Part shown: positions 17,128 to 58,640 of the stretch, piece after piece
How the letters are laid out: each line of letters begins with the position of its first letter
Position numbering within the stretch: the first letter of the stretch is position 1
Assembly (NCBI GenBank): GCA_016214695.1
Contig: JACRNY010000001.1
Coordinates: 558,001 to 622,000, forward strand
DNA length: 64,000 nt
Reading direction: 5' to 3'
From: Nitrosomonadales bacterium
GTDB lineage: Bacteria; Pseudomonadota; Gammaproteobacteria; Burkholderiales; Gallionellaceae
Notes under the pieces: model-generated
Database searches by the model: none
Told to the model about the DNA's origin: nothing
What the model saw: only the letters and a program-made list of their open reading frames with translations
Program-made: the position numbers and the translations under genes

Positions 17128-17276
17128 TGTTTGGCGAGAATATATCCGTAACCGGCGACCTCAGTAATTTGCGCCTTTCAAGGCTGCAAAAATCCCTTTT
17201 TGGTGCCGAATATCCGTAACAGCGCCCCACAATCTACCTCTATTTGCATAGGAAACTGCAATATAAGCGTAACCGC
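17128..17276. repeat. Transposon left end with three putative TnsB-binding repeats
   Basis: Site 1 at 17131-17155 and site 2 at 17199-17224 share TTGG-G---GAATAT-CCGTAAC. Site 3 at 17258-17276 has the degenerate core AATATAAGCGTAACCGC. All three point the same way; GTAAC occurs at 17148, 17216 and 17269, so spacing is 68 and 53 bases. Tn7-family ends carry several directly repeated 20-odd-bp TnsB sites, the first a few bases from a TGT tip, which is what is seen. Confidence 0.6.
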
Positions 17277-17327
17277 CATTCCAAATAGCTCTGCCAAGTT
17301 TTTTTATTTAGTTCGTCCCTTGCATTA

Positions 17328-17361
17328 TTGCATATTTGCAATTATATTTGCAAATATGCAA
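17328..17361. promoter_or_regulatory. 14-bp inverted repeat, putative operator of xre-tniQ
   Basis: Perfect arms TTGCATATTTGCAA and TTGCAAATATGCAA separated by TTATAT, ending 10 bases before the xre start. A compact symmetrical AT-rich site directly in front of a helix-turn-helix gene is the usual sign of autorepression. Confidence 0.7.
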
Positions 17362-17371
17362 ATCCCAATTT

Positions 17372-17734
17372 ATGCCAATCGTGCCGCTTGATACCGCCAG
17401 CCAACGTCATCTTGAAGCCTTAAAAGCCTCCGTAAAGTCTAAGCAGTTAGGCCTGAAGCACATCAGTGACGCTACGGGCGTTCATATTTCCCAAGTCAGC
17501 CGGATACTCTCTGGCAAGGTCAAACGCGCATCCCCGAACGTCGAGAAGATTTGCAAATTTGCAGAACTGGCAGATTTGCCGCAGGGCACCATCGGGAGCG
17601 AAGAACTTCTTTGGAAAGCCGTTAAAGAAGTTTGGGATGGAACTGACAAACATGCTGTAGCGCTTACGAATTTCCTGGCTGCAATTGGACGCTACCAAGT
17701 AGCTATTCAAGAATCCGTAAACAAAACCTCTTAA
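17372..17734 (+). CDS. XRE-family regulator paired with tniQ
   Basis: A 120-aa protein with an N-terminal helix-turn-helix (about residues 20-55; LGLKHISDATGVHISQVSRI) and a C-terminal helical part of unknown role. It follows a 14-bp inverted repeat that is the likely operator and lies 11 bases before tniQ on the same strand, so the two form an operon at the transposon left end. The likely job is to hold tniQ, and thus one targeting route, in check. The ATG at 17372 lacks a clear ribosome binding site; an upstream TTG at 17336 is a weaker alternative. Confidence 0.75.
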   Translation: MPIVPLDTASQRHLEALKASVKSKQLGLKHISDATGVHISQVSRILSGKVKRASPNVEKICKFAELADLPQGTIGSEELLWKAVKEVWDGTDKHAVALTNFLAAIGRYQVAIQESVNKTS

Positions 17735-17745
17735 GGAGTCAGATC

Positions 17746-19131
17746 ATGCTCAATATCCCCACCGTCTTGCCAAATGAAATTGATCGAAGCTATCTAGGAG
17801 CGGTGATGCGGCAAAATGGCGACAACAAAGAATCAGCAATTATTGCCAAAATTGCCCTGCATGTTGGGTTGGGTGACAAAACAAGGCGACAATTACCCGC
17901 AATTGAACTGCTTGGCAAAATTGCTCAAACCGATACTCAAACTTTTGTCAGGCAACATTCAACCTTACCCTATCGTCGAGGGATTACTTCTTACTTTGCA
18001 GACCTTAGGCATGGTAGCGAAGATAACCGGAATATTCTACGTGACTCAGGAATGCGCGTTGCTCGGCCCGGAGCCTATTGTTGTCACGCATGCATTGAGC
18101 ATGACTTAGCAACACATGGCAGAAGCTACTGGCACCGAGAACATCAGATACCTGGCCTGTTGTGGTGCCCCACGCACGGGACACCCCTTCACTACATGGA
18201 ACATGAGCGTAGTTTTCTGAGAGCACCTGATCAACTTCTTGACGAGTGTCGCTTGGTGACAGAACCATGGCTGAAAAATACAATCGACAATCAATTTATC
18301 AAGAATTTCTTGGCCATTTCGTTCGAGCTATTGAATCGCGAAAGGCCTTTCGATGTTAAACATATCTCCGGGATATTGAAGAAAGAAGCCCTTCTTCGAG
18401 GACTCCACTCACACTGTGGGAAGGTAAAGGCCCCCTTGTTGAGTGACGCCATCATCGAGAATTTTGGCAGGGAGTGGCTCGCCACGGTTATGCCTACCCT
18501 GGCATATAAACAGCAAGGAAAGCTGCTTAGCCAAATGGATGGCGTTCTGTATCTGACCACCTCCGCATCTTCCTCCACGGCATACATATTGGCGCTATCG
18601 TATCTCTTCGAAACTCCAGAAGTAGCATTGATCGCGCTAACGCGCTCTGATGAGTCATCATTCAAGGCGAGCCGTGCAAGGTCGACACACAAAATTGACC
18701 AGCATGACCTTAAGTCAGCCTACCTCAAGGCACACGGCAGTTACGCAAAGACCGCCAATTTGCTGAAGACAACCTATTCAGCTATATGCGGTCGTTTGAG
18801 TAGCATGAAATTACCCAATCTTGACGACGATAGCTGGCAATCGATGCAAAGATTTGCCGCTGCATATTTCGTTGAAGGTAAGTCACTGAGTGACAGTGTT
18901 TCTACAGGAGGCTTCGCGATAGATGTGCTGGATATTTTTGTACGTGTTGCAGGCACCCTAATAACCGATGATTTACTAGAAATGAAGAAGCCAAAATCAG
19001 GTCGTGGTAGCGGGATTCGTCGCCCCCTAAAGCTGGCGCCAAATGAGGTAGCTTTAGCTAAAGGTCCAATGGCAACGAAATTTAGCCCAAATCTGAGACG
19101 AGAGCAGCGACTCAGTCTTCTGGCTGTATGA
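17746..19131 (+). CDS. tniQ: TniQ/TnsD-family target selector, left-end copy
   Basis: A 461-aa TniQ-domain protein. The N-terminal zinc-binding module is visible as C113-x2-C116, H130, C141-x2-H144 (CHAC ... YWHREHQIPGLLWCPTHG), which is diagnostic of TniQ/TnsD. The C-terminal half is a long helical region with a helix-turn-helix-like segment near residues 330-350 (LKAHGSYAKTANLLKTTYSA), expected to bind a DNA target. AAGGAG precedes the ATG by eight bases. This copy is separated from tnsABC by about 33 kb and differs from the tnsD-like gene at 50877 in length and sequence. TniQ proteins recruit TnsC to chosen DNA sites; which site is unknown here. Confidence 0.88.
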   Translation: MLNIPTVLPNEIDRSYLGAVMRQNGDNKESAIIAKIALHVGLGDKTRRQLPAIELLGKIAQTDTQTFVRQHSTLPYRRGITSYFADLRHGSEDNRNILRDSGMRVARPGAYCCHACIEHDLATHGRSYWHREHQIPGLLWCPTHGTPLHYMEHERSFLRAPDQLLDECRLVTEPWLKNTIDNQFIKNFLAISFELLNRERPFDVKHISGILKKEALLRGLHSHCGKVKAPLLSDAIIENFGREWLATVMPTLAYKQQGKLLSQMDGVLYLTTSASSSTAYILALSYLFETPEVALIALTRSDESSFKASRARSTHKIDQHDLKSAYLKAHGSYAKTANLLKTTYSAICGRLSSMKLPNLDDDSWQSMQRFAAAYFVEGKSLSDSVSTGGFAIDVLDIFVRVAGTLITDDLLEMKKPKSGRGSGIRRPLKLAPNEVALAKGPMATKFSPNLRREQRLSLLAV

Positions 19132-19238
19132 CGTTTGGTCGCATCATTCTCTGGAAATATCTTCCGTTGTTCGGCCACTCCGGTCATAGCTCTTAACGAA
19201 TTCGTTGCCACAAAGCGGACTTCCGCCAACCGTCACTA

Positions 19239-19749
19239 TCGACCCCTATGCATAGATATCAACTAGGTATAGTTGTGTCGGGAAGAACGAGCCTGACCTG
19301 CGGCACCACTCATCAGATGCCGGCGCATTCTTTACATAGTTACAGCGTCTGGAGAAACTTCATGAGTGAGTCTGGTGCTTGGTATGGTCGCAACTTGGTG
19401 TCGGGTGCTTCCAGTCTGGCGAGCGCCTTTCCCTTCATCACCAGGTCGACTTCGACGTATCGATGAGTGGTGTTCGTGCTCTCGTGTCCGAGCTACAGCG
19501 CGATGACGTTGAATGGCACGCCCAACTGTAACAAGTGCATCCTAGTCCAGCCAGTCGATGCGGGTGAATCGAGATGATTGTGTGCTTCCCATGATGATCT
19601 CCTTGAAGTGGAACCATCACTGCACTCTACTGTGGAAACTATGTCTAGATGTACGCAGAACGATCTCGCCAAAGACCATGCTGGGCCTGCGTCAAACTAC
19701 TCTGGAAAGTACGATCTACGCCTAGTTGATATCTATGCATAGGGGTCGC
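19239..19749. mobile_element. 511-bp element bounded by 28-bp perfect inverted repeats
   Basis: The 28 bases at 19239-19266 (starting CGACCCCTATGCATAG) recur exactly inverted at 19722-19749. Identity stops sharply at both sides. Inside lies the 3' remnant of a tyrosine recombinase. It looks like a miniature or decayed mobile element; I do not know the family. Apart from it, 19132-19992 holds no gene I can support. Confidence 0.6.
19340..19545 (-). pseudogene. C-terminal remnant of a tyrosine recombinase/integrase
   Basis: On the minus strand the frame reads MHLLQLGVPFNVIAL, then an amber stop, then LGHESTNTTHRYVEVDL and a tail ending KFLQTL. This is the end of an XerD-like integrase: the LGHES box and the tyrosine nucleophile in THRY. 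The stop replaces what is a tryptophan codon in relatives (TGG to TAG). Nothing of the N-terminal and core-binding domains, nor of the catalytic Arg-Lys-His-Arg, is present upstream, where a different short frame begins. It is a dead fragment inside the inverted-repeat element. Confidence 0.75.
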
Positions 19750-19777
19750 TATGTATAGCTATACATAGCGACCCGAA
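19746..19777. repeat. 32-bp perfect palindrome at the right edge of the inverted-repeat element
   Basis: Begins GGGTCGCTATGTATA and ends with its exact reverse complement TATACATAGCGACCC around GC. It overlaps the last bases of the 28-bp inverted repeat. It may be a recombination site or a regulator site; no gene follows closely. Confidence 0.6.
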
Positions 19778-19992
19778 GCAGCCCCCCAAGAGAATTTCAA
19801 TGAAGGCAAACTTCTCGGCCAAAGCGGACCGAGTGATCGGTAGAAAGAGAGTCCGTTTTGTATGCTTGATCGGACGTAGAGAAGACTTGCGTTGGTTCTG
19901 CTGCGTGATGAATTCAACCGTTCTCTCGATTGGCACTGATTTCGGGGGCATTGCTCTGGAGCGATGGAGTATTTATCGCGGCCCGCCAAGAA

Positions 19993-22152
19993 TCATCTGT
20001 CAATCGAGGTTGGAGGAGTAGCTTTCAATTTCAGCAGCCGCATTCCATTAAATACCACGATCAGGCTGGCTCCCATATCGGCGAACACCGCCATCCAGAG
20101 CGTGGCTTGCCCGGCAAGAGCCAAGATGAAAAACACCGCCTTGATGCCGATGGCCAGCGCGATGTTCTGCCGCAGCACGCGGGACGTATCACGGCTTAGC
20201 CGGATGAAGTGAGGCACTTTGCGCAAATCATCATCCATCAGTGCGACATCGGCAGTCTCGATAGCCGTATCGGTTCCTGCGCTGCCCATCGCAAAGCCGA
20301 TTGATGCCTTGGCCAGCGCCGGTGCGTCGTTGATGCCGTCGCCCACCATGCCGACTTTGCCGTAACGGCTGATCAGCTCATCGATCACCGCCAGCTTTTC
20401 TTCCGGCAGCAGATTGCCGCGCGCATCATCTATACCTACCTGGATGGCGATGGCACCAGCCGTGATCTGGTTGTCGCCGGTCAGCATCACCGATGCCACG
20501 CCGAGAGCGTGAAGCTGGGAGATGGCCTCGGCACTGTGCCCGCGCAGCGTGTCGGCCACGCCGATGATGCACAGCGGCTCGGATGCCGTGGCGAGTATCA
20601 CCGCTGTCTTGCCTTCTTTCTCCAGGCGGCCAAGCACTTCCTCGACATGCAGCCCGCAAACACCCAGCTCTTCACACTGCCGATGGTTGCCCACATAGTA
20701 AAGTTGTCCGTCAACCACCGCTTTGGCACCGCGCCCGGTGATGGATTCGAATGAGGCGACCGGCAACAGCGCCCGTTCAGTCTTCCCGCCATCCTGCCAG
20801 GCCGATACGATGGCTGCTGCAATGGGGTGCTCGGAATGCGCATCCACACTTGCGGCAAGTTGCAGCAATTTGTCCTTCGGCCATTCGACCAGCGGGACGA
20901 CGTCGGTCACGACAGGCCTGCCGTGCGTGAGCGTGCCGGTCTTGTCCAGCGCCACCGCCTTGATCAAACGGCCATTCTCCAGATGCACGCCGCCCTTGAC
21001 CAGAATGCCCTGCCTTGCCGCAGCGGCAAGACCGCTCACCACCGTAACGGGAGTGGAGATCACCAGCGCACAGGGGCAGGCGATCACCAGCATGACCAGC
21101 GCCTTGTAGAACCATGGCTCGAACTCTGCGCCGAACAGCAGCGGCGGCAAGGCTGCCACCAGTACCGCGAAGACCACTACCGCTGGGGTGTAGTAACGCG
21201 CAAACTGGTCAACGAAGCGTTGCGTCGGCGCGCGCTGGCCTTGCGCCTCCTGCACCGTATGGATGATGCGATCCAACGTGGTGTTTCCTTTGTTTGCAGT
21301 GACGCGAAATTCCAGCATGCCGCGTTCGTTCAGGGTTCCCGCGAACACCGGGTCGCCCGCAGCCTTCACCACGGGGATGCTTTCTCCGGTGATCGGTGCC
21401 TGATTCACCGAACTACCACCCGCCGTGACCACGCCGTCCAGCGGGATGCGTTCGCCCGGTTTGACGCGCACGGTATGTCCGATCCGCACATCGGCAGCCG
21501 CCATGTCTTGCCACTCGCCGTTGTCGAGTTGCACGGTGGCGATTTCCGGAGTCATGGCCATCAGCCCCTTGATCGCGTTCTTGGCACGTTCCAGCGAAAG
21601 CGTTTCGATCAATTCAGCCAGCGCGAACAGGAAGATCACCACCGCAGCCTCCGGCCATTCGCCGATGGCAATCGCGCCGATCACGGCGACGCTCATCAGG
21701 AAATTCATGTTCATGGTGAAGTTTTTGAGCGCGATCCATCCCTTTTTCAGGGTGCCGAGACCGCCGGTAGCGATGGATAGCAAAGCCAGCGAGATCACCG
21801 CAACCGATTGCTCGCTTGCCCCGCTCCATGCAACGATTTCCGCAGCGATGGCCGCAGCGCCGGACACCGCCATCAGCATCCAGGTCCGGCGCGACACCAC
21901 AGGAGATTCCACCTTGCAAGTGGAGCAGGAACCAGGCTGGCATTGCGGCCCGGTGTCTGTCTTCATGCCTATCTCGCGCAAGGCATCGCGAATGGCTTGA
22001 TCGTCGTCCAGCGTATGCATCACCGTAAGACGGCGAGCCATCAGGTTGAATGACAGCTCACCGATGCCGGGCACTGATCCGAGACGTTTGCGAATCAGTG
22101 CCTCCTCGGTCGGGCAGTCCATGTTGCTGATGACATATACCGATTGTTTCAT
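19993..22152 (-). CDS. cadA: Cd/Zn/Pb-translocating P1B-type ATPase (CadA/ZntA-like)
   Basis: A 719-aa inner-membrane pump exporting Zn(II), Cd(II) or Pb(II). The N-terminal HMA-like domain keeps only one metal cysteine pattern (NMDCPTEE, C13) followed by a cysteine cluster CQPGSCSTC (residues 71-79). The membrane CPC motif is C359-P-C361, the phosphorylated aspartate is D403 in DKTGT, and TGES and the GDGINDAP hinge are intact. The CPC with HMA style marks the P1B-2 group. It is the last gene of the minus-strand cargo and is separated from the Met-rich protein gene by about 40 bases. No zntR/cadC-like regulator is next to it. Confidence 0.92.
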   Translation of the reverse strand: MKQSVYVISNMDCPTEEALIRKRLGSVPGIGELSFNLMARRLTVMHTLDDDQAIRDALREIGMKTDTGPQCQPGSCSTCKVESPVVSRRTWMLMAVSGAAAIAAEIVAWSGASEQSVAVISLALLSIATGGLGTLKKGWIALKNFTMNMNFLMSVAVIGAIAIGEWPEAAVVIFLFALAELIETLSLERAKNAIKGLMAMTPEIATVQLDNGEWQDMAAADVRIGHTVRVKPGERIPLDGVVTAGGSSVNQAPITGESIPVVKAAGDPVFAGTLNERGMLEFRVTANKGNTTLDRIIHTVQEAQGQRAPTQRFVDQFARYYTPAVVVFAVLVAALPPLLFGAEFEPWFYKALVMLVIACPCALVISTPVTVVSGLAAAARQGILVKGGVHLENGRLIKAVALDKTGTLTHGRPVVTDVVPLVEWPKDKLLQLAASVDAHSEHPIAAAIVSAWQDGGKTERALLPVASFESITGRGAKAVVDGQLYYVGNHRQCEELGVCGLHVEEVLGRLEKEGKTAVILATASEPLCIIGVADTLRGHSAEAISQLHALGVASVMLTGDNQITAGAIAIQVGIDDARGNLLPEEKLAVIDELISRYGKVGMVGDGINDAPALAKASIGFAMGSAGTDTAIETADVALMDDDLRKVPHFIRLSRDTSRVLRQNIALAIGIKAVFFILALAGQATLWMAVFADMGASLIVVFNGMRLLKLKATPPTSIDR

Positions 22153-22189
22153 TTCATTCCTTCCATAACTCCAAAGATTTTCCGATCCT

Positions 22190-22726
22190 TTACCTTGGCT
22201 GCCACATCCATTGCTGGCGCTGCATCATCTGGTCCATCATCATCTGCTGTGTGCCCATGTATTGATCCATCATGTACTGGCGCTGCTTCATCTGTTCTGG
22301 GGTGAGATTGGAGTAGTAGCCACCCATGCCACGCCAGCCCATCATGTGATCGCCCATCATATGGCCTCCCATCATGTGACCGCCCATCATGTGACCGCCC
22401 ATCATCCCTCCGCCGCAACATCCCATCATGCCCGGCCCCCACATACCGCCCATCATTCCGCTCGTGCTTTGCATGGTCGTCCAGTGTTCCTGCAGCAAAC
22501 GCTGCCGTTCCTGCGGGTCTTGTGTCTGGCGAATCTTGTCCATCTGCTCCTGCATGGTCTTCAGGTTTTCCTGAATCTGCGACATCTGCTTGTCAAATTT
22601 CGCAACATCGGGTGCCTGCTGCGCCGACTGGCTTTCCTTTCCGGCAGGGGGAGTCTTCTCGGCCAGTGCCGGTACAGCAGAAAACAAGACAACGGACATT
22701 GCAGCTATAAAAATCGTCTTTTTCAT
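22190..22726 (-). CDS. Secreted Met/His-rich protein with MMGGH repeats
   Basis: A 178-aa periplasmic protein: signal peptide to about residue 23, a helical stretch (residues 40-90; QIQENLKTMQEQMDKIRQTQ), then a metal-binding-looking segment with four to five tandem repeats of HMMGG/D near residues 105-130 and a Met-rich tail. Repeats of Met, His and Cys (GMMGCCGGGMM) suggest binding of Cu or another soft metal in the periplasm. GGAGAAG precedes the ATG at 22726. Not a family I can name; role in metal buffering is inferred from composition and place between two metal efflux systems. Confidence 0.75.
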   Translation of the reverse strand: MKKTIFIAAMSVVLFSAVPALAEKTPPAGKESQSAQQAPDVAKFDKQMSQIQENLKTMQEQMDKIRQTQDPQERQRLLQEHWTTMQSTSGMMGGMWGPGMMGCCGGGMMGGHMMGGHMMGGHMMGDHMMGWRGMGGYYSNLTPEQMKQRQYMMDQYMGTQQMMMDQMMQRQQWMWQPR

Positions 22727-22864
22727 GATCACTTCTCCTTTATGGTTGAAAACACACTACATGAGCCGAAACGGCCCGGTTCAAACCAGGTTGTGATACC
22801 AAATACGATAACTTAAATACCATACTACTCCGCTTGGTTATGCTTATGAAATCCTATACTTCAC

Positions 22865-23260
22865 CTACGAGACTGCCTGCAACACCCGTTCGAGCTTCTG
22901 CCGTACCTCGCGCGCCAAGTCGGTGATGGCAGGCTTGTCGACGAGATCGAGCACAGCGTTTGGATCCATGATCTCGACGTAAACAGCACCCGATTCGTCC
23001 TGGCGCACCACCACGTTACATGGCAGCAGCAGGCCGATGGAAGGCTCGGCCACAAGAGCTCGATGCGCCAGCGGCGGGTTGCAAGCACCGAGAATGCGAT
23101 AGGGCGGTATGTCCTGGTTAAGCTTCTTCTTGAGCGTTGCCGCCACGTCGATGTCGGTCAGCACGCCAAACCCCTCGGCTTGCAAGGCACGGATCACTTG
23201 CTCCAACGCACTTTCAAAATCCAGTGCAACCTGCTTGCCAAAGCCATAACGAATACCCAT
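22865..23260 (-). CDS. DUF302-family protein
   Basis: A 131-aa cytoplasmic protein with the DUF302 pattern: a YGFGKQVALDFESALEQV start, GFGVLTDIDV, the central YRILGACNPPLAHRAL and LPCNVVVR with conserved cysteines. DUF302 proteins often accompany metal and sulfur redox genes; their activity is unknown. The ATG at 23258-23260 is preceded by GGAGAA. It follows czcA and the DUF3240 gene on the same strand. Confidence 0.8.
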   Translation of the reverse strand: MGIRYGFGKQVALDFESALEQVIRALQAEGFGVLTDIDVAATLKKKLNQDIPPYRILGACNPPLAHRALVAEPSIGLLLPCNVVVRQDESGAVYVEIMDPNAVLDLVDKPAITDLAREVRQKLERVLQAVS

Positions 23261-23389
23261 GATCTTCTCCTTATCAAGTATTGAACTCATAACCAACTTC
23301 AGTACGCCAGAAATTCCGGCCACTGGCAGCAAGTGGCCGCATCCCCAATCCCGTTCACGTACCGCTTCACTTTCCTAGTGCCGTTAATG

Positions 23390-23698
23390 TCATAACGCCC
23401 CCTTTCTTTCAATCGCAGTCACCTGGTAGGTGCAGCGCCCCGCCAGACCGCAGTTGGCAGCACGCAAAGCCTGCAAGACATTCTCCACATCCTCGTCCTT
23501 GAGCAGAATGTCCACCCGCACGTGCGGCGTGTAGCCGATTACGCGGTCGCGCGCGGAAAGCACAGGATCAGATTCGTCCTGGGGACTGTGGCCCTCGACC
23601 TGGATGAAGGTAAACCAGGTTACCTGCTCAAGGCTGTGCAGCGTATCCGCCAGCGTCTGTTGAATATCGGCATGCACGATCAACATGAGGTTCTTCAT
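23390..23698 (-). CDS. DUF3240/PII-like small protein downstream of czcA
   Basis: A 102-aa protein with a ferredoxin-like, PII-type pattern (MKNLMLIVHADIQQTLADTL, and a C-terminal CGLAGRCTYQVTAIERKG). Such DUF3240 proteins are often encoded directly behind heavy-metal RND pumps. The ATG overlaps the czcA stop (ATGA), so it is translationally coupled to the pump. A regulatory or metal-sensing role at the pump is plausible by analogy to PII-like proteins, but is unproven. Confidence 0.78.
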   Translation of the reverse strand: MKNLMLIVHADIQQTLADTLHSLEQVTWFTFIQVEGHSPQDESDPVLSARDRVIGYTPHVRVDILLKDEDVENVLQALRAANCGLAGRCTYQVTAIERKGAL

Positions 23699-29731: not shown

Positions 29732-29741
29732 GGCAATCTCC

Positions 29742-50387: not shown

Positions 50388-50819
50388 TCAACTCATTCTT
50401 GAAATATTCCCCAATGAAACCTTGTATCGATGTATGAATTCTTCGGTTGCGTTCTCGACCTTAACTTGATTAAACCCACACCAATTGTCGAGCACATATT
50501 GTGCATCATCGCAAAATCCGGGCAAGCCAACTAGTTGATATACCCGCCCACTGCTAGTAACGCCACGCATAGTCACTGAATCGAAATTTTCGATTTTGCT
50601 CGAAACGGCGCCATTGAACTCTCTGCAATTTCGTCCGGAAAAATGCAATCCAAAACGATCTTCGAACCCGTTTGCTTTCACAACCTTGAAGACCTGCCAT
50701 GCTTCCAGCCATTTTTCCGGTTCAGCCTCTACCGAAGCCGAGCCCCAGATATTTGGATGCTTTTCCAAATCAGCAATGACAGCCCTCAATTGATCTTCAT
50801 GGTATTTATCTTTGCTCAT
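50388..50819 (-). CDS. Hypothetical 143-aa protein upstream of the orphan antitoxin
   Basis: A cytoplasmic protein with a charged helix first (LRAVIADLEKHPNIWGS) and an aromatic/cysteine-containing second half (GLPGFCDDAQYVLDNWCGF). AGGAGC lies before the ATG. No family recognised. It is followed by the antitoxin gene on the same strand, about 80 bases to its likely start. Whether the two form a new type of pair is open. Confidence 0.6.
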   Translation of the reverse strand: MSKDKYHEDQLRAVIADLEKHPNIWGSASVEAEPEKWLEAWQVFKVVKANGFEDRFGLHFSGRNCREFNGAVSSKIENFDSVTMRGVTSSGRVYQLVGLPGFCDDAQYVLDNWCGFNQVKVENATEEFIHRYKVSLGNISRMS

Positions 50820-50876
50820 AACTTTTGCTCCTTTCAGTTCGAATTCAACATTTCAAAGTCCAAGTTGACGTATCTA

Positions 50877-52595
50877 CTATTTGTTGCGATGAACTTTTGC
50901 TTTCTCCAGGATTTGCATTACGAGGGCGCGTGACTCAGGTAGGCGATCAAGACGCGGCGAAAATGAAAGATTTTTGGTTTTTCTCAGTACTACCATTGGC
51001 TTCAAGCGCTCCCAATCCTCAAAGCGCAAAGTTGCCTCCAGAGTTTTTAGCGCTGATAAGCACTCCTGATCACGCAACGTCCAATCGACACGTGGTCTGC
51101 GCTTCGTGACCTGCCTGCCTCGACGCGTCGTTTTTGCTGGCAACCTGCTTTTGAGCCATTCTTTGTCATGGCGCGACAGCCAGCTATATCCGGAATTCTT
51201 AGTTTTCCGAAGTTCCGCCCAAGAACACTTTGGATTGCTTTTGATTAGCAATTCGAACTTCTCGCGCTCCGTCTTTCGCGCCCGTTCATGGCTTGCTGCG
51301 CGCCACACTTCATGCAGACTGGGTTGTTCGTTGCAAATCCGGTCAATGGTTGCTCGCGAGAAGGAGAATGTCTTTGAGATTTGTCGAAAGGGCTCTCCAC
51401 GCTTGATAGACTGGATAATCTCTGACCGAATTTCGTGTGTAAGTACCTTGGGACGCCTTGATACATCCATCAAGCCCAGCTTCCCTAACCAACGAATGGC
51501 AGTACTCACATCTATTCCCAGTACTCTAGACAAAGCAGTTACAGACCCCTCCCCATTCTTGTAACGCCGCGCCAATTCGATCACAAGTGTTTCGTATTCG
51601 CATGTCGTATGCACTTCTTTTGGGTCGGTTGCTTCCTGCTGTAAAAGAGGCAACTCCATCTGATGCTCCCAAGCATAGACGGAGGTAAAGCTATCCCAAC
51701 TTCCGAATAGAGCGTCGATAAGCAATAGATGAGATACTGTATGGAAATTCCCCCGAGGTTTCCTGACAAGTCGCAGCATCCCTTCAACATGGCGTTCATC
51801 AACAATGCGATTGAATGGATCCAGGTTTGCAATCGCGTGGTATTTGTCACTCAACCACTTCACGAAATCCCTTGCTCTGACTTGACCTCCTTTTGTTAGC
51901 AAGCCATGTTGGCTGAGCCCATGCTGGTATGTTGCAAGTAGTATCTGCGGGGAATATTCACCTGAAAGAGTACTGTTTAGCGCCGCAACGGACAGATTCG
52001 ACAGTTGCCGCAACAAGGGCAGTTGCTGATCTGCAATGACTGATGTGCTGGTCGAGACTATTTCAGGATCATCCGGAAGAAACAGGGTTGAACGCCCTCG
52101 CCCGTCGATCCTGATACTTGACTTAAGTATCGGGACTCCGTGGTTCGCACATACGAAAGTCCCAGGAAGTTGAAGTTGCCGGTGCCAATATGCGAATCCA
52201 TGTACATCCTTGTCTTCGCGAATACAATCTTCACATGTGCATAATGGCATGCTCGAGCCCGATGGTCCTGCCGGCAAACCAAGAACGAATTTAAGCGGCT
52301 CGACCGTGTCTCCGCGCATCAATGCGAGTGCTTCGGCGTGGACTTCCGGCGGGCGAAATCGCAGAAAATAAGGAAGGACGGTTGCTTTCAGGGCAATCTC
52401 GTCAGGTTGGCCGTAAGCGGATTCGGTACGCCTGCTGAACTCGCCAAGGTGTGACGGGAAGTCGTGGCGGAGCCCAGCTCCGGGGCTGCCGAATAGCAAA
52501 TGACTGATTTGTTCCCCGCGACTCGATCCTCCCCAGCGGTGGGCGATTGCCACAAGGGAATATAGCGTCATGTCTTGCTGCAGAATCGGAAGCAT
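50877..52595 (-). CDS. tnsD: TnsD/TniQ-family target selector next to tnsC
   Basis: A 572-aa TniQ protein. Start at MLPIL, one base after the tnsC stop; this N-terminus (MLPILQQDMTLYSLVAIAHR) is the family pattern. The zinc site is C121-x2-C124, H138, C149-x2-H152. The C-terminal part carries helix-turn-helix-like segments (RVLGIDVSTAIRWLGKLG; FRQISKTFSFSRATIDRI), as in TnsD proteins that bind an attachment site. A short stretch of basic residues upstream of MLPIL belongs to the overlapping tnsC frame. Second target selector of the element. Confidence 0.9.
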   Translation of the reverse strand: MLPILQQDMTLYSLVAIAHRWGGSSRGEQISHLLFGSPGAGLRHDFPSHLGEFSRRTESAYGQPDEIALKATVLPYFLRFRPPEVHAEALALMRGDTVEPLKFVLGLPAGPSGSSMPLCTCEDCIREDKDVHGFAYWHRQLQLPGTFVCANHGVPILKSSIRIDGRGRSTLFLPDDPEIVSTSTSVIADQQLPLLRQLSNLSVAALNSTLSGEYSPQILLATYQHGLSQHGLLTKGGQVRARDFVKWLSDKYHAIANLDPFNRIVDERHVEGMLRLVRKPRGNFHTVSHLLLIDALFGSWDSFTSVYAWEHQMELPLLQQEATDPKEVHTTCEYETLVIELARRYKNGEGSVTALSRVLGIDVSTAIRWLGKLGLMDVSRRPKVLTHEIRSEIIQSIKRGEPFRQISKTFSFSRATIDRICNEQPSLHEVWRAASHERARKTEREKFELLIKSNPKCSWAELRKTKNSGYSWLSRHDKEWLKSRLPAKTTRRGRQVTKRRPRVDWTLRDQECLSALKTLEATLRFEDWERLKPMVVLRKTKNLSFSPRLDRLPESRALVMQILEKAKVHRNK

Positions 52596-52596
52596 T

Positions 52597-54090
52597 TCAC
52601 CCTTCTTTCTTTTTCGCTTCCGTCCGAGCTGCCTCAAGCCCAGCCAGCTGAATGTTGACTAGTCCCTGTTTGCGCAGATCATCTGGCGAAAGCGATTTGG
52701 AAAGTTCTTCCCGTTTCAACTGCTGATTCTTTTTCCTGGTTTGTTCGCTCGCGAATTTTGCTTTCTCGGTTTTATGTTTTCTGGGTACACTCTTTGATGT
52801 ATCACTAGAATCAGGTGTTTTCCCACCACCCTGTGTTGCTCCTTCAGTGGGTTTTGAATCGGTGCATTTAACTTTCCAGTGACTGGCATAAAAGTCAGCG
52901 TCGACGTCAGGATAGTTCATAAGCAGCTCCGGCTTACGGAAGTTGAAACCATCCGCCAGAGGTTTAAGTTTGGCGAAGTCCGGCGATTCATAAAGTTTCT
53001 TGATATCCTCAGGACATATTGATTCGATGCCGTTTATAAGATTGTTTCGTTGGGCAAAACACCAAAGCATCAGGGCCAACCTAGCAATTCCGCCGCTGCA
53101 ACTACGCAGCATTTTCGAGCACCCTACGGGATCAATAATTTTGCCTCGTAGCACCCAATATCCCATTACCCCCATAGAAACAGCATTCCACTCAACATCC
53201 GCATCCGGCAGATTTGTTGATCCAATTGGAGAGAAGATTTCAGGTGGAGTAAGGTGCAGTCGGCTCAGATCTTGACTGTATGTCACCCAGTCAAATGCCC
53301 TCTCATTGCCTATCATCACCAAGGGTATGCCTGAATTCATCAGTTCCATAAGGAACATCTGCATGAGTTCCGCATGCCCGGATTTAATCAAGTTCCGAAG
53401 TTGCCCCTCGTCGATAAACAAAATTCCAGTGAAGTGGGCGATTAATCTGCCAACAGTCGCCACAACAAGCTTATCAACCGTGCGGTAGCTCTTTGGCAAA
53501 TCGATGGAATAAGTCGTACCAAGCAGACTATCTATCTGAAGCAAAATGCGCGTTAAGAATCCGCTACGTGTTCCATCATGAGACATGTTCAATTCAAGAT
53601 AGACAATCTGCTGCAATTCATTCCAACCGGCAGCTTCATCCTTGTCCCGAAACAAAAATTGTGGAATTAGGGTACAAAAACGTTGGACCGTAACGCTCTT
53701 ACCAGTTCCGGTCGGTCCCTTCGTGACATGAATCGACATACCTCTTGTCGGAGCAGGAGGAAGAGGATCTGCTCTGGCTGCGGCATTGATCTGCGCCCAA
53801 TAAAGGCGTTTCGCCTCTGGGATTACCGGATTTCGGGCACGAAGCCCCATTTCCAGCATGCCCCACCATGTCATCGCTGCGCGAACGGATTGCATCGTCG
53901 GCTCCAGAGGCACTTTCTCACCTACAAGAAGGGATACTCGATCTACAACTCCCAAACTCTCAAGATCAATTCCAGCTAACGGGTCGAAGGCGAGTTTATC
54001 CAGAATGTCGGAAACCTCCGTAAAACGTGGCAAACCAACCAACAGGGGGTTGTACATTGAATACCAGTTTTGATTTTTCTTAGTGTCCAC
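52597..54090 (-). CDS. tnsC: Transposition regulator ATPase TnsC
   Basis: A 497-aa AAA+ protein. Walker A GPTGTGKS at residues 125-132, Walker B ILFIDE at 223-228, and a sensor segment IPLVMIGNERAFDW. TnsC forms ATP-dependent filaments on target DNA and bridges TniQ proteins with TnsAB. The C-terminal 120 residues are charged and low complexity. It overlaps the tnsB end by 11 bases. Longer N-terminal domain than the IS21/Mu-type relatives, as in Tn7 TnsC. Confidence 0.92.
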   Translation of the reverse strand: MDTKKNQNWYSMYNPLLVGLPRFTEVSDILDKLAFDPLAGIDLESLGVVDRVSLLVGEKVPLEPTMQSVRAAMTWWGMLEMGLRARNPVIPEAKRLYWAQINAAARADPLPPAPTRGMSIHVTKGPTGTGKSVTVQRFCTLIPQFLFRDKDEAAGWNELQQIVYLELNMSHDGTRSGFLTRILLQIDSLLGTTYSIDLPKSYRTVDKLVVATVGRLIAHFTGILFIDEGQLRNLIKSGHAELMQMFLMELMNSGIPLVMIGNERAFDWVTYSQDLSRLHLTPPEIFSPIGSTNLPDADVEWNAVSMGVMGYWVLRGKIIDPVGCSKMLRSCSGGIARLALMLWCFAQRNNLINGIESICPEDIKKLYESPDFAKLKPLADGFNFRKPELLMNYPDVDADFYASHWKVKCTDSKPTEGATQGGGKTPDSSDTSKSVPRKHKTEKAKFASEQTRKKNQQLKREELSKSLSPDDLRKQGLVNIQLAGLEAARTEAKKKEG

Positions 54091-56554
54091 GCTTGTTCCC
54101 TTCCTGGCGCCGATTTAGGATTGCTTGCTGCAAAATCGAAATTGGAACATGTGGATTATTTTCGTGAGCTGACTTGTCTTCACCATTGGGTGTTGATATT
54201 CCGTTGTCATGCGGGGAGACCTGTTTTGTCTCCATTGATGCATCGTTAGGAATTGGATGTTCATCCTGGATTTCTTCTTTCCCTCCTTCAGCATTCTGCT
54301 CTTCGAACAATGGGGGGCTCTGGATAGGCATTCCGTATTGGTAGCTAGCTTTTTCCTTTTCCCTGTTTGCCTTCTTATTACGACGAATGGCTGACTTGGA
54401 TGGGGGTTTGTCGACAGCTTCCAAAGCATCGTCATATGCATCCTTGGCTTCCTGCTTGGTCACCTCTTGTCCTGCCTCCATATCACTCAGCGCTTCTTCT
54501 TTTGCATTTCGTGCATTGAACAAGTGAATCGCATCACTTTCCATTAGATTGATAATGTCTGGAATCGAGCATTCGAAGGGCAAATCTTCGTCCTTCGTCT
54601 TCATCCACAATCGAATGAGCTCACCATCAATCGGGTTCCGATAATATAGCTCGGTAGGGTTGTAGGGATCTTGGCGGAAATCGTCGTCAAATGATTCCGC
54701 CGACACTCCAGCGCGGCCTACTTTGGCTTTCATGAACCTCTCTATCATCACTGGGTGTCTACTAATGTACTGAACTGGTTCGATGAATTCGCGCTTCTGT
54801 CCAGTATCCGGGCGAAGCAACTTGACACCATGTTGAGTAAACACACCACGCACATGCGGCATTAGCTTGATTCTCGCTTCGTCATTACTAATGAGACTCA
54901 TTGCGAGCTTGCCTTGATTGATCTTCATTCTGGTGAGATTTAGCCTATTCAAAGTCAAGCCCTTGTCGATAATCTCTCTACGCATCTCCAGCGTCGGATG
55001 AATATCAAGAGGCATGGTGTTAAATGTGTGAACTGCCCGCGCGGTTTCACGAATTGCTTCAATAATTGTCATGCGGGCGAGAATGTCGGCCCGCTCTTCG
55101 CCACGTTCATGGCGTTGCCCATGTGTTGTGCCATGGAGGTTATGGTCAACCATTCGATGCAAGGAGTGATGACTTGTTTCAGCAGGTGCATTCAAATCGG
55201 AACGAGCAACACCAACGAATTTCAAACCCGTTCCAATCTGATCGAGGGCTTCAATCACCCCTTGGCATCGCGCGTCAGTATTGTCAGCGGTGACACTTGA
55301 GAATCTGATCGATATCCAATCGGCAGGATCTATGTCCTCCAGCCCAAGCCATTTAAGCCACTCTGTCTTGTCAGTAAGCGAGTGAAGGAACGCCAGAAGT
55401 ACCGTCTCAGTGCTTGGCGCATCTAGTCCCAGATAGAAGCCTGATATATATCCATACATCCCTTCAACAACAAGAATGCGATGGGCAGGGCCAATGCGGT
55501 CGAGACGATTCTCGACTCTGACGAACTCAGTATCGGGTGACGTCGAATCCGTGTAGCCTTGCTGGCCCACCACGACAACGTTGTCGGACGAGTAACCAAG
55601 AAGTACACGATCAACGCGCCCCAAATTGAATTTAGTAAGTTGTTTCTTCCAGCTATCGTGGCCAGGTGATCTCTCTTTTCCCCATCGTTCAAATTGAGAA
55701 CGAGTTGGTCGTTGATGGTCAGGTAGTAGTTTCTTGTGAACTATTCCATTCTTATCAGTAACTGATTTTGAATAGAATTCCCGCCACATTCGACGCAAGG
55801 CTTTTGCAATAGTGGTCCCACGGACGTAATAGTTCCGCCAACCGAAACCACATATGTCTTTGTCTTCTTCCGTCATCACAAAGCCTTCCAGGCCAATATG
55901 ATGTGCCGCGGTAGGAGCGTTATATCTCCCAAGTTTCTTCTTCTGCTTTCGCGCTTTTCCTCTACCTCCTTTTGCGCCAGAGAACGGCGTAAGTGCGTCG
56001 GTAACACTACCTCCGGCCCAATATTGATTGAGCAATTCATTGAACATCTTCTTTGTTCTGGCGATGGTTCGATTTAAATTTCCCATTGCGTTTGCCAGTT
56101 TGGCAATTCGTTCCGAACGAATCTGGGGGTCGAGCAACATCTTTTTATCCTCGGAATCCAGTTCTTTGCCTGTTGAATCCTTGATAAGTAGACCTATAAG
56201 TGCGTCACGTGCCTCCCTATCTCTGCGCGGATTTGAAACTTTCTGACCTCGACGCAGATATTTTTTATCGAGATCATCTTTGGTTGCTTCAACATCGGCA
56301 CGGGGAGCGACACCCTTCACATTGATTGCAAGCCAGCGCCGATTAAGTTCATCCATTACCTTAGACAAATCCGCAATGAGGGGACCTACAAAATATATTC
56401 TCTTTTTTGATCTGCGCGGAGTGACCGGAATAATGACTATGCGGTTTAGTCCTTCATGTACATCAAGAACCCTGTATGTCTCATCTAGACACGCCGACTC
56501 GATCTTCGGCTCGATGATCTCCCCTGCAACGGGAAGCCGGCGTAGGTTTGGCAT
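54080..56554 (-). CDS. tnsB: Transposase TnsB (DDE integrase family)
   Basis: An 824-aa transposase that binds the ends and joins them to the target. The catalytic triad is D336 (TDST), D424 (TADNTD) and E459 (NAPAETSHHS), a D-88-D-35-E spacing typical of retroviral-type integrases. N-terminal ~300 residues are DNA-binding with basic stretches; the C-terminus (about 690-824) is acidic, Glu/Asn/Lys rich and likely contacts TnsC. Its ATG shares one base with the tnsA stop (TAATG). Divergent from Tn7 TnsB, but the motif spacing is clear. Confidence 0.93.
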   Translation of the reverse strand: MPNLRRLPVAGEIIEPKIESACLDETYRVLDVHEGLNRIVIIPVTPRRSKKRIYFVGPLIADLSKVMDELNRRWLAINVKGVAPRADVEATKDDLDKKYLRRGQKVSNPRRDREARDALIGLLIKDSTGKELDSEDKKMLLDPQIRSERIAKLANAMGNLNRTIARTKKMFNELLNQYWAGGSVTDALTPFSGAKGGRGKARKQKKKLGRYNAPTAAHHIGLEGFVMTEEDKDICGFGWRNYYVRGTTIAKALRRMWREFYSKSVTDKNGIVHKKLLPDHQRPTRSQFERWGKERSPGHDSWKKQLTKFNLGRVDRVLLGYSSDNVVVVGQQGYTDSTSPDTEFVRVENRLDRIGPAHRILVVEGMYGYISGFYLGLDAPSTETVLLAFLHSLTDKTEWLKWLGLEDIDPADWISIRFSSVTADNTDARCQGVIEALDQIGTGLKFVGVARSDLNAPAETSHHSLHRMVDHNLHGTTHGQRHERGEERADILARMTIIEAIRETARAVHTFNTMPLDIHPTLEMRREIIDKGLTLNRLNLTRMKINQGKLAMSLISNDEARIKLMPHVRGVFTQHGVKLLRPDTGQKREFIEPVQYISRHPVMIERFMKAKVGRAGVSAESFDDDFRQDPYNPTELYYRNPIDGELIRLWMKTKDEDLPFECSIPDIINLMESDAIHLFNARNAKEEALSDMEAGQEVTKQEAKDAYDDALEAVDKPPSKSAIRRNKKANREKEKASYQYGMPIQSPPLFEEQNAEGGKEEIQDEHPIPNDASMETKQVSPHDNGISTPNGEDKSAHENNPHVPISILQQAILNRRQEGNKRGH

Positions 56555-57477
56555 TATTGGGCGTCTCCTTGGATGCTCGATCGAATGGCTGCCTGAAGAC
56601 TTCTGCCACCCGGCCGAGGAGGCAACGAAGTCTTGATCGGCAATGACAAGTCACAGTCAATCAGTTGATTCCATATGATGTGATTCAGTAGAAATGCGGC
56701 TTGCTGATTATTCGCGGCGTAATCGGCTTTCAGCCGCTCACTCACTTCGATGAGAGGGTACTTAGCAATACTATTTCCATGTTTGCTGAGAAATCTACCC
56801 AGTACTGAAAACCACGGATGATTACGCGGCAGAACCGCTGAATCGGCAAGAGACTCAAGTTGAGCAAATAGTGGGCCTGGAAACAGCGAACGATCGCCGA
56901 CAAAATATGGAAAGTCTAAGGCCTGAGCATAACGCCGCTCAGCCTCTAGTTTTTCTGGCCCACGATCCAATGGATCAATATATAGGTATCGCTCTGATTC
57001 CAACGGCTTCACTGAAACCAAGGCGCAAGCCTTCTCGGGCGTTGGTATCCAAGGTAAATGCAAACATAAATCCATCGTCCAGACATAGGGAATGTCCGTT
57101 CCCACGAAGAAGCCATGCTTGATACCCATATCTCGGCAAATCGACTGCATGCCTTCGGACCATGGTAACGTTGCATCGACTTCAGGATTTCTGTCGTATT
57201 CTGGATGCGGGTGTTGCCATGGCCACATGGGAAATTGCTCTCGAACGTGCGCACCTATCCAGGCGAACAGCAAGCCCAGATACCACTCACTCAGCGAAAA
57301 GAAGTGGCATTTTCGTTTGAAGGGAGGAAGGGGTTTCAGCACCTGAACTGACATCGGCGAAGGGTTCCACCGTTTGATTTGCAGGGTTGACTGATAGCCT
57401 TCTCCAAAACCAACTCCCATACCTGCTTGAATCAAGTCTACGAGTCTGTTCCAAGTATCTTTCGGTGGGCGGGCCAT
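56554..57477 (-). CDS. tnsA: Transposase endonuclease subunit TnsA
   Basis: A 307-aa restriction-like endonuclease that cuts the 5' strands at the element ends, giving cut-and-paste transposition. Catalytic residues: E64 (FSLSEWY), D136 (VWTMDLCLHLP) and K157 in LVSVKPLE (S155-x-K157 where Tn7 has Q-x-K). The C-terminal helix-turn-helix region follows. First gene of tnsABCD; intact TnsA suggests conservative transposition. Start context is weak, but the position of the motifs fits. Confidence 0.9.
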   Translation of the reverse strand: MARPPKDTWNRLVDLIQAGMGVGFGEGYQSTLQIKRWNPSPMSVQVLKPLPPFKRKCHFFSLSEWYLGLLFAWIGAHVREQFPMWPWQHPHPEYDRNPEVDATLPWSEGMQSICRDMGIKHGFFVGTDIPYVWTMDLCLHLPWIPTPEKACALVSVKPLESERYLYIDPLDRGPEKLEAERRYAQALDFPYFVGDRSLFPGPLFAQLESLADSAVLPRNHPWFSVLGRFLSKHGNSIAKYPLIEVSERLKADYAANNQQAAFLLNHIIWNQLIDCDLSLPIKTSLPPRPGGRSLQAAIRSSIQGDAQ

Positions 57478-57714
57478 TTCAGAGAACCGCTATTGCCCGC
57501 GACCAACATGGACGATCAAATGAACACGGGGCTGGGCTGTATTTCAATCTCACCAAAACGATTTGGGAACCAGCAGTCCATTGGACCCGTTCCTTATGAG
57601 TTGATACTTCATCTTTTTTTGTCTTAACTTTCATCGTCTTTCCCTTTTTTCAGACCGAGCGTACCCGCCGATCGCAATGAAACGCTCGTTAAACAAAATT
57701 GAACAAAGAGGGAA

Positions 57715-57743
57715 TTGACGCGCCGGAATCAGGCTCGTAGACT
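57715..57743 (+). promoter_or_regulatory. Sigma70-like promoter outside tnsA
   Basis: TTGACG at 57715-57720 and TAGACT at 57738-57743 with exactly 17 bases between, close to TTGACA-N17-TATAAT. It reads away from tnsA towards a terminator at 57786-57821. A partial inverted repeat ACTTCG/CGAAGT overlaps the -10. Confidence 0.55.
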
Positions 57744-57749
57744 TCGTAC

Positions 57750-57821
57750 CGTGGAGTAGCGAAGTTTTGGTTCCCCCAAGTTAAGGACGCTCACGGCCTG
57801 CCAGCCGTTGTGCGTCTTTTT
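57750..57821 (+). ncRNA. Candidate small RNA of about 72 nt beside tnsA
   Basis: Begins about seven bases after the -10 element and ends in a rho-independent terminator: stem GACGC/GCGTC, an internal loop, stem ACGGC/GCCGT, loop CTGCCA, then five T. No ATG-initiated frame lies within. It matches no RNA I know. It is positioned between tnsA and the small DNA-binding gene, inside the presumed transposon right end. Confidence 0.45.
57786..57821 (+). terminator. Rho-independent terminator of the candidate small RNA
   Basis: Two 5-bp GC-rich stems separated by a TC/TGT internal loop, with loop CTGCCA and a TTTTT tail. The rest of 57478-57878 shows no gene. Confidence 0.65.
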
Positions 57822-57878
57822 GGTTTAGTAAGTCGCTTAAATACCCTCCCTGATTTTCATTTGATTACATGGGTCGCA

Positions 57879-58097
57879 TTAATTCGGTGACTTTAGGCCG
57901 AGCGCCACCGCAATTTGATGTGATTGCCCTCGCAGACATTTCCGCCGACCTTGAAGAACTGCATAGACTAGCGCCGGCGCGAATCCTTGCTCGCGCGCCC
58001 ACGAGTTAATGTTGAGTCCATTTAGGCGGAACCACTTCTGCGCTTCGTCAGCCGAAAGCGTTTTGGATCGAATTGATGGATCAAGTTTGTTTTCCAT
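57879..58097 (-). CDS. Small putative DNA-binding (HTH) protein
   Basis: A 72-aa protein: SADEAQKWFRLNGLNINSWA and REQGFAPALVYAVLQGRRKC look like a helix-turn-helix of the kind found in small phage and plasmid regulators. Start ATG at 58095-58097. An inverted repeat CATTTGTTAC/GTAACAAATG about 110 bases upstream could be its operator. Located between tnsA and the presumed right end, so perhaps a repressor of the tns operon; inference only. Confidence 0.6.
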   Translation of the reverse strand: MENKLDPSIRSKTLSADEAQKWFRLNGLNINSWAREQGFAPALVYAVLQGRRKCLRGQSHQIAVALGLKSPN

Positions 58098-58189
58098 GAA
58101 GCAAATATTTTTGAAAACCCACCTAATCATCAGATGATTTCCGAATGAATGCAAGAACTTTCTATCGCGGATTAATCAGCTATATTCAA

Positions 58190-58300
58190 TAAGTTACCAA
58201 CAGTTTCATTTGTTACTTTCAGTAACAAATGACCACCTAAATTGACACCGTTAGTAACAATTTTTGATGACTAATGGTTGTAAATTGAACTGTTGGTTTA
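58190..58300. promoter_or_regulatory. Cluster of inverted repeats upstream of the small HTH gene
   Basis: CATTTGTTAC at 58207-58216 and GTAACAAATG at 58222-58231 form a perfect 10-bp inverted repeat with 5-base spacer. ACCAACAGTT (58196-58205) is inverted at 58288-58297. GTTAC/GTAAC occurs four times in 66 bases. Operator for the HTH gene or right-end protein sites. The remaining bases up to 58640 hold no gene I can support. Confidence 0.5.
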
Positions 58301-58640
58301 ATCAGAAATGCTGTTAAATATTGATGCGGATTGGTAAATAGAACCAATCGTGCGCATTTCAAAACCCAATCGCAAAGATGTAGATTTTTCGAACTTAATA
58401 TTTTTCGATGTGCATTGAGGAGGTACTCCGGTAAGGGGCTTATTATGGAAAGAACAAATCTCTATTTCGCGACGGTGCATACCGCATTCCGCTCAAGACA
58501 TAGCGGGATAAGCTTTGTGTGCTAGCCTATAAATACCGCCAGAATCTGGCAACGCCAAACATACTGTTAATAAATTGAAAACCTCATTAGTACTGCTAAG
58601 TATTTTCTTAAATTAACCCGCTCTGCAAGGAAACCATACG

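Follow-up and report, generated by a model that had tools for sequence, protein, structure and literature searches.

How does a Tn7-like transposon that appears to be free of clustered regularly interspaced short palindromic repeats (CRISPR) manage two targeting pathways? Tn7 has a two-pathway lifestyle, and the second pathway of Tn7-like elements has been described as TnsE or CRISPR, with unstudied non-CRISPR systems also mentioned (PMC11406308). For CRISPR-free elements with two TniQ-family proteins, the management of two pathways is largely an open question. It is raised by a 64,000-nucleotide stretch (the window) of a Nitrosomonadales genome (GCA_016214695.1, contig JACRNY010000001.1, positions 558,001 to 622,000), in which an earlier note, made from the sequence alone, had proposed one Tn7-like transposon with two different TniQ-family proteins: TnsD, encoded with the transposition genes tnsABC, and a second protein, here called TniQ2, encoded behind a small XRE-type gene (xre). 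Both indeed lie between the same terminal repeats. With moderate confidence, we favour the reading that TniQ2 is a second, repressor-controlled selector beside TnsD, whose home site would be the superoxide dismutase gene sodB, on a single and apparently intact transposon.

Ends of the transposon

End-to-end alignment defined a Tn7-like transposon of 48,224 bp, running from window position 17128 to 65351 (G000:C2:575128-623351), with its right end 1.35 kb beyond the end of the window. The terminal inverted repeats, TGTTTGGCGAGAATATATCCGTAAC, are identical between left and right at 25 of 25 bases, and a 5-bp target-site duplication, TCTGC, flanks both ends. The ends are of the TGT...ACA type and carry arrays of TnsB-type repeats, which are putative TnsB sites; the three at the right end are inverted and lie at 65273, 65305 and 65325, all outside the window. 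A whole-window scan for an inverted copy of the left repeat with at most one mismatch returned nothing; the right end was found only by a genome-wide search with the left-end repeat ATATCCGTAAC. This search gave 21 places in all, of which three are exact: two belong to the left end, and the third, at G000:C2:623327, is inverted and adjoined by two copies with one mismatch. Identical 25-bp ends, a 5-bp duplication and three repeats per end cannot reasonably be a coincidence. The left boundary proposed in the earlier note, 17128, is exact. Its right boundary, 58561, is 6.8 kb short of the matching end and missed a cyclic oligonucleotide-based antiphage signalling system (CBASS); a repeat search of this earlier placement (57470-58660) found no sequence resembling the left end.

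The genes xre and tniQ2 follow each other immediately inside the left end and are both oriented inwards, and tnsD is 31.7 kb away from this operon. This distance, together with the fact that the nearest relative of TniQ2 serves a different transposition core, could be taken to mean that xre-tniQ2 is a fragment of a separate element that is close by only by chance. We regard this as scarcely credible, since the pair is enclosed by the identical 25-bp ends, inside the 5-bp duplication, and thus within the same terminal repeats as tnsABCD.

Insertion at sodB

Directly outside the right (tnsA-side) end is a superoxide dismutase gene, the reading frame of which stays intact; 13 bp separate its stop codon from the transposon. 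Its best NCBIfam match is to Fe superoxide dismutase NF007832 (5e-90, 300 bits, below the 348-bit curated cut-off), and on this match we call it sodB. At the home site of Tn7, the tnsA-side end adjoins glmS; with sodB as its insertion site, the present element is not Tn7 proper.

A sodB match was obtained in 52 of 60 genomes, and the 30 most similar loci, from the same family, were taken, 29 of which were read (the window's own was left out). Inspection by eye revealed no end-like sequence within 110 bp after the sodB stop codon in 26 of these loci and end-like remnants 10-13 bp after it in the other three (L107, L110 and L116), whose genomes (G409, G154 and G115) gave no TniQ match and no TnsB match. 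In five of the 29 loci (L097, L100, L102, L105 and L117), sodB adjoins the tetratricopeptide repeat (TPR) gene that lies to the left of the transposon in the window (14378-15781), indicating that relatives have the order sodB-TPR without the transposon. Insertion at sodB is therefore directed past a conserved gene that has unoccupied counterparts in relatives. Between the transposon and the TPR gene, the window has a further 1.3 kb (15782-17122) that encodes a toxin-antitoxin-like pair, the antitoxin of which has a match to TIGR03070 (8.9e-11) that falls short of the cut-off; this pair is possibly an earlier insertion at the same site.

A second Tn7-like element is located at sodB in G028 (NCBIfam match of the dismutase, 2e-90). 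Its order is sodB, three AATAAAGTTTTGAAC repeats, genes that we take to be restriction-modification-like from a look at their sequences, tnsABC, a divergent tnsD and xre-tniQ; no far end was detected on the contig. In G071, from the same genus as the window, a partial copy of the sodB 3' end (L130, G071:C3:225424-225508; about 85 bp, 78% identical) lies ~4 kb from sodB and may be an att-like duplication derived from an island of a different kind. The literature searched, including parts of PMC10293859, PMC8649781 and PMC11406308, does not name sodB as a Tn7-like attachment site; this coverage is partial and leaves absence unproven. As a candidate for safe insertion, too, the 3' end of sodB was not found named in that literature.

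The transposition core

The earlier description of a complete tnsA-B-C-D set with catalytic residues was borne out, as all four genes are full-length and the catalytic-type residues are invariant in alignments. TnsD, which is 572 aa long from its first ATG and 586 aa from a TTG, matches Pfam family PF15978 (5.8e-35) and has a long TnsD-type C-terminal part. TnsC matches an AAA domain in Pfam (1.2e-06), and its Walker A motif, GPTGTGKS, was read directly. TnsB matches the structure of Tn7 TnsB (PDB 7pik, 1e-07), whereas the match of TnsA to Tn7 TnsA is weak (0.16); TnsA is 30-35% identical to the TnsA proteins of G028 and G390, and neither TnsA nor TnsB has a Pfam match at 0.001. TnsB residues D336, D424 and E459 are invariant in all ten aligned TnsB proteins, and TnsA residues E64, D136 and K157 in eight of eight aligned TnsA proteins; by analogy with Tn7, we take these to be the catalytic positions. 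Judged by these matches, TnsB, TnsA, an AAA+ TnsC and a TniQ/TnsD protein, which together characterise a Tn7-like element, are all present.

Tn7 and the present element have in common TnsA-D, the 5-bp duplication, TGT-starting ends with repeated TnsB sites, and a position just beyond a conserved gene, towards which the tnsA side faces. It differs in its site (sodB instead of glmS), in the second TniQ behind an XRE-type gene, in a gp16-family protein encoded upstream of tnsA and in giving no tnsE match. The TnsE_C profile was silent in 13 of 13 genomes and likewise in all 14 controls; of the earlier statement that tnsE and CRISPR are both missing, the absence of TnsE is thus not established. 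As to CRISPR, a search of 17128-64000 detected no CRISPR-like array and no CRISPR-like direct repeats. Pfam scans of the open reading frames (ORFs) scanned, which are part of all ORFs, detected no Cas genes, and a CRISPR-associated transposon (CAST) was rejected on these two results. When compared with plasmids, tnsABCD DNA gave no match; TnsD matched 145 records, none with at least 60% identity and with 24-26% among the matches listed.

Two TniQ clades

The two TniQ-family proteins differ in length (572 and 461 aa), as stated earlier, and the C-terminal half of TniQ2 is distinct from that of TnsD. The tniQ2 frame is intact and its zinc motif is invariant in the alignment. The earlier note had called for a phylogeny of both proteins, and a 26-protein tree of TniQ cores, several rows of which have long branches, placed them in distinct clades. 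Eleven second TniQs, including TniQ2, are separated (99/97) from 15 others, which comprise eleven TnsDs, two 389-aa TniQs and two short TniQs (G028 and G390). A split into two clades argues that the TniQ pair of the window does not derive from a recent duplication.

Elements with two TniQ-family proteins are known: Faure et al. (2023) report 998 such loci, mostly in situ duplications in which the second protein is usually much smaller, with few distantly related pairs (PMC10293859). The present element likewise carries two TniQ-family genes, but both proteins are longer than 400 aa, belong to two clades and are encoded at opposite ends of the element, and the second is in an operon with an XRE-type gene. 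What is new here is a complete, CRISPR-free-looking Tn7-like element at sodB with a conserved XRE-tniQ pair as its proposed second selector.

A TniQ2 profile identified 11 places, of which nine were examined (G326 and G111 were left out). A TnsD-type or 389-aa TniQ partner is present in eight of these nine. TniQ2-clade proteins are found in elements beside glmS (G379, G151 and G401) or the ammonium transporter gene amt (G311 and G440). The ends and home site of the G390 element were not found. The nearest relative of TniQ2 is in G281 (44% identity over 455 aa), in a gene cluster that ends beside rpoH, with end-like repeats recognised by eye. The only sodB match of G281 (L099) is without an element, which suggests that TniQ2 is probably not the protein that reads sodB.

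Two of these home genes recur. The amt gene stands beside Tn7-like ends with AATAAAGTCTGTCGG repeats in G440 (L131:12700-15289) and G311 (L149:2671-5678), for neither of which an inverted-end search found the second end, and beside a broken TniQ2-type gene in G124 (L152:1319-8132). In G281 (L133:7332-9534) and G124 (L151:3238-5498), a gene for a 389-aa TniQ is found just upstream of rpoH, the two products being 37.5% identical to each other, and a short TnsD-like gene has the same position in G024 (L136:8279-10029). Such genes upstream of rpoH in three genomes suggest that it is another recurrent Tn7-like site.

The xre-tniQ2 operon and its palindrome

The window xre has no Pfam or NCBIfam match, and its product is called XRE-type from its own sequence and from the helix-turn-helix (HTH)-like matches of two relatives. 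A profile built from three proteins (window, G028 and G281) was searched against 399 genomes and matched in eight, with five strong matches (E below 1e-24) and three weaker ones. All five strong matches are directly upstream of a tniQ, although those of the window, G028 and G281 are the profile's own rows and only G124 and G311 are independent; the three weaker matches have no tniQ in the locus stretch examined. A C-terminal WDG motif is common to the three aligned XRE proteins. By these matches, a putative XRE-type gene directly precedes tniQ at five loci. The guanine-plus-cytosine content of xre-tniQ2 (47%) is near that of tnsABCD (48.8%) and CBASS (48.7%), unlike the metal cargo (58.7-59.8%).

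The earlier note had linked the second TniQ to a repressor, and tniQ2 does lie behind the XRE-type gene with a strong palindrome in the promoter region. This palindrome, TTGCATATTTGCAATTATATTTGCAAATATGCAA, forms 16 of 17 pairs, a value that none of 500 shuffles of the 69-bp region reached, and only one further case of similar quality occurs in the window, at 19742. A palindrome over the xre start in G028 forms 18 of 19 pairs, again with none of 500 shuffles as high. The hexamer TGCATA or TATGCA is found in all five xre-start regions, and the surroundings of tnsABCD in the window contain no other close copy of the motif. We take these features to point to likely self-repression of the operon, for which the support is good at two loci and weak at the others.

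Downstream of the operon, a segment between tniQ2 and a P-type ATPase gene (19239-19760) features inverted repeats around about 500 bp, plus the 34-bp palindrome at 19742. The segment appears to hold a broken tyrosine-recombinase-like end (LGHESTNTTHRYVEVD).

Exchange of selector and cargo

The trees of TnsB and TniQ2 disagree. According to TnsB, the window falls together with G028 and G390 (98/97), and G281 is paired with Variovorax (100/100); among these five the TnsC tree resolved only the G281-Variovorax pair. In two TniQ trees, TniQ2 of the window groups instead with G281 (95/88 and 95/94), although a topology that holds the G281 and Variovorax proteins together was only marginally rejected (p-AU 0.047). 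The transposition cores of the window and G281 are distant, with TnsC 22% identical and no BLASTP match at 0.001 for TnsA and TnsB, whereas the cores of G281 and Variovorax are 39-47% identical. The TnsB of G281 was missed by a single-protein search and found by a profile search.

G281 also contains much of the metal-resistance block of the window, at 69-87% nucleotide identity per matched piece. Its tnsABC genes sit inside the shared block, between the outer-membrane gene of a resistance-nodulation-division (RND) pump and the ICMT gene. The block thus accompanies the TnsABC of another Tn7-like clade, which argues for cargo exchange rather than for an unrelated metal island. The same block in a genome without tns genes would have told against the earlier note; in G281 it stands beside that genome's own TnsABC. 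The G281 locus spans two contigs (C18 and C8), whose CusA pieces jointly cover the gene with no exact end overlap, and from the gene order we infer that they form one element. Taken together, both cargo and selector seem, on sequence comparison, to pass between Tn7-like elements. The conflict between TniQ2 and TnsABC trees is a candidate case of selector exchange, of which Faure et al. found only few examples (PMC10293859).

The same tree conflict and sharing with G281 also permit a different reading, in which xre-tniQ2 arrived from a G281-like element, TniQ2 no longer works with the window TnsC and TnsD alone directs insertion. The low TnsC identity and the lack of a BLASTP match for TnsA and TnsB would fit such a passenger. 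Its intact frame, invariant zinc motif and place directly inside the left end with an XRE-type gene and palindrome would not, nor would the TnsD-type or 389-aa partner in eight of the nine TniQ2-clade places examined (of 11 found). We consider a passenger unlikely.

A model for two pathways

The sequence evidence supports TniQ2 as a candidate second, repressor-controlled and exchangeable selector. In our model, TnsB would bind the three repeats at each end and, with TnsA, excise the transposon, while TnsC would connect TnsA and TnsB to a target selector. TnsD, as selector of the home site, would recognise the conserved 3' coding end of sodB and set the tnsA-side end just past the stop codon. 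TniQ2, working with the same TnsC, would provide an alternative pathway that takes this core to a different target. The XRE-type protein would repress tniQ2 via the palindrome, such that the TniQ2 pathway opens when the repressor is absent, for example after entry into a new cell. The earlier note had proposed a second, repressor-controlled targeting mode; the XRE-type gene and palindrome that it needs are in place, and we infer the mode itself from them. As the defined parts are few (a single core with two selectors, an XRE-type protein and a palindrome), pathway choice is testable directly in E. coli.

A broader proposal, which we advance only tentatively, is that xre-tniQ2 is a self-contained exchangeable cassette of repressor, operator and selector that moves between Tn7-like elements with distant TnsABC cores and home sites. 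It would give CRISPR-free elements a second pathway that is on in repressor-free cells, and sodB would be a further fixed home site served by TnsD.

Several observations weigh against the two-selector reading. The palindrome is weak at three other XRE loci, where shuffles scored as high in 11 of 500 (G281), 37 of 500 (G124) and 291 of 500 (G311) cases. The low identity of TnsC between the window and the element with the nearest TniQ2 means that TniQ2 may not pair with the window TnsC. No close relative of TniQ2 was found among plasmids, only partial matches of about 25-36%, which carry no information on its target, and no relative was found among viral contigs. A predicted TniQ2 structure (mean pLDDT 37.8, pTM 0.24, from eight sequences) was unusable and was not used. 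The remaining points concern the home sites. A TniQ2-clade gene adjoins amt in both G440 and G311, so TniQ2-type proteins might read fixed sites. The TnsD C-terminus failed as a predictor of home site, as C-terminal identity does not follow the site: TnsD of G028 (sodB) is closer to that of G440 (amt) than to the window TnsD. The role of TnsD as reader of sodB consequently rests on exclusion and on the Tn7 pattern.

The amt neighbours and the unclustered TnsD C-termini would also fit a reversal of roles, with TniQ2 reading sodB and TnsD as the alternative selector. This is very improbable, given that G281 has no element at sodB despite its TniQ2 relative, that the TniQ of the other sodB element (G028) falls on the other side of the tree, and that sodB is adjoined by the tnsA-side end instead of the tniQ2 end.

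The two proteins could alternatively act jointly at sodB, one as TnsC adaptor and the other as DNA reader. There is precedent in Tn6022, whose TniQ works with a second protein, TnsF, at comM (PMC10293859, PMC11406308); in Tn5053, TniQ is presumed to aim at plasmid resolution sites (PMC11406308). TniQ-based targeting is predicted here as in those elements, but no TnsF match was obtained in the scans run and sodB is left intact. Joint action is improbable, because TnsD already has a long TnsD-type C-terminal part, tniQ2 is in a separate operon with its own regulator, and TniQ2-clade proteins also occur in elements beside amt, glmS and rpoH.

A parallel to our two-selector model is provided by type I-F3 CASTs, in which the XRE-family proteins RtaC and RtbC regulate transposition in a two-pathway lifestyle with zygotic induction (PMC11406308). 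A protein of XRE type is common to both, and its control of transposition and the two-pathway lifestyle would be shared under our model. The differences are the lack of a CRISPR-like array and of Cas matches described above, and the gene predicted to be regulated, which here encodes a 461-aa TniQ.

Cargo and other genes

The coordinates of all features are collected in Table 1.

Table 1. Features of the transposon in window coordinates
Feature	Position	Strand	Basis or remark
Target-site duplication TCTGC, left copy	17123..17127	.	Right copy at L093:1352-1356
Tn7-like transposon, in-window part	17128..64000	.	Extends to window-equivalent 65351
Left terminal inverted repeat TGTTTGGCGAGAATATATCCGTAAC	17128..17152	+	25/25 match to right end
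Three TnsB-type repeats, left end	17139..17275 (about 17139, 17207, 17260)	+	Repeat search
34-bp palindrome TTGCATATTTGCAATTATATTTGCAAATATGCAA, proposed XRE operator	17328..17361	.	Just upstream of xre ATG
xre, small XRE-type protein, 120 aa	17372..17734	+	ATG at 17372; family beside tniQ in 5 genomes
tniQ2, second TniQ, 461 aa	17746..19131	+	PF06527, 1.2e-13; zinc motif CxxC..CxxH
Metal cargo I: HMA-type P-type ATPase, His/Met-rich protein, DUF302, PII-like, RND pump, outer-membrane protein	19993..28103	-	
Metal cargo II: ICMT-like, P-type ATPase (HMBD/YHS), HD domain, major facilitator superfamily, CopB, multicopper oxidase, YHS, DUF2231, DUF411	28842..42151	-	
Metal cargo III: CusF, CusA-type RND, CusB-type adaptor (CusF domain at end), outer-membrane protein	42121..48638	-	
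DUF2946 protein and rhodanese-domain protein	48717..49692	-	
MbcA/ParS-type antitoxin, downstream of tnsD	49873..50391	-	Library scan
143-aa protein, downstream of tnsD	50388..50819	-	Library scan; no Pfam/NCBIfam match
tnsD, proposed sodB-site selector	50877..52637	-	PF15978
tnsC, AAA+ ATPase	52597..54090	-	AAA domain match
tnsB, DDE transposase	54080..56554	-	D336, D424, E459
tnsA, endonuclease	56554..57477	-	Putative catalytic E64, D136, K157
BcepMu gp16-family protein, 72 aa, upstream of tnsA	57879..58097	-	TIGR04111, 7.7e-25
278-aa protein	58641..59477	+	No Pfam, NCBIfam or PADLOC match
CBASS: SAVED-PDDEXK effector, TRIP13, HORMA, cyclase	59520..63509	-	PADLOC
HTH-like gene in CapH position	63707..64000, ends 64030	+	Position and sequence look only
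CapP	64030-64878, outside window		PADLOC, 2e-81

The metal-resistance cargo (about 19993-49692) encodes two P-type ATPases, two RND pumps, CusF, a multicopper oxidase and CopB, together with DUF411, DUF302 and PII-like proteins and others. From these families it is predicted to give copper and zinc resistance. The earlier characterisation of the cargo as nearly every major copper system was loose: the RND pump at 23695-26790 and its outer-membrane gene (to 28103) have no visible periplasmic adaptor gene next to them, and the ORFs scanned, which are part of all ORFs, included none for a dedicated copper regulator. The same pair of RND pump and outer-membrane gene is present in G281, where again no adaptor was seen. 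A small protein encoded at 22190-22732, which is rich in Met, Gly and His, contains repeated MMGGH units, has no family match and probably binds metal.

The CBASS locus (59520-64878), a phage defence system, lies inside the transposon. PADLOC identified the cyclase (1e-143), HORMA (1.4e-82), TRIP13 (7e-128) and effector (1.6e-208) genes, which point to a CBASS with CapH and CapP, CapH being assigned by position and a look at its sequence only. Heavy-metal genes and CBASS are both known as Tn7-like cargo (PMC8649781). BGImetal of Burkholderia likewise combines a Tn7-like core with heavy-metal genes, but has tnsA, tnsB, tnsC and tniQ in a row and one TniQ (PMC10702557).

The 143-aa protein encoded downstream of tnsD has a 63% identical counterpart just downstream of a tniQ in another Tn7-like element of the same genus (L135:10929-11363, G024:C18:95929-96363). 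At the other side of the core, a gene of the phage-type gp16 family stands upstream of tnsA in four Tn7-like elements, namely those of the window, G281, G311 and, by tblastn, G353 (L159:8707-8958, L148:11148-11396 and L153 about 12698-12868 outside the window). A palindrome, TCATTTGTTACTTTCAGTAACAAATGA, lies upstream of the window gene at 58206-58232. Of the DNA between the gp16-family gene and tnsA, about 130 bp are 73% identical between the window (57647-57776) and G281 (L159:9038-9166), even though TnsA and TnsB of the two gave no BLASTP match; this stretch is possibly a shared leader or control region.

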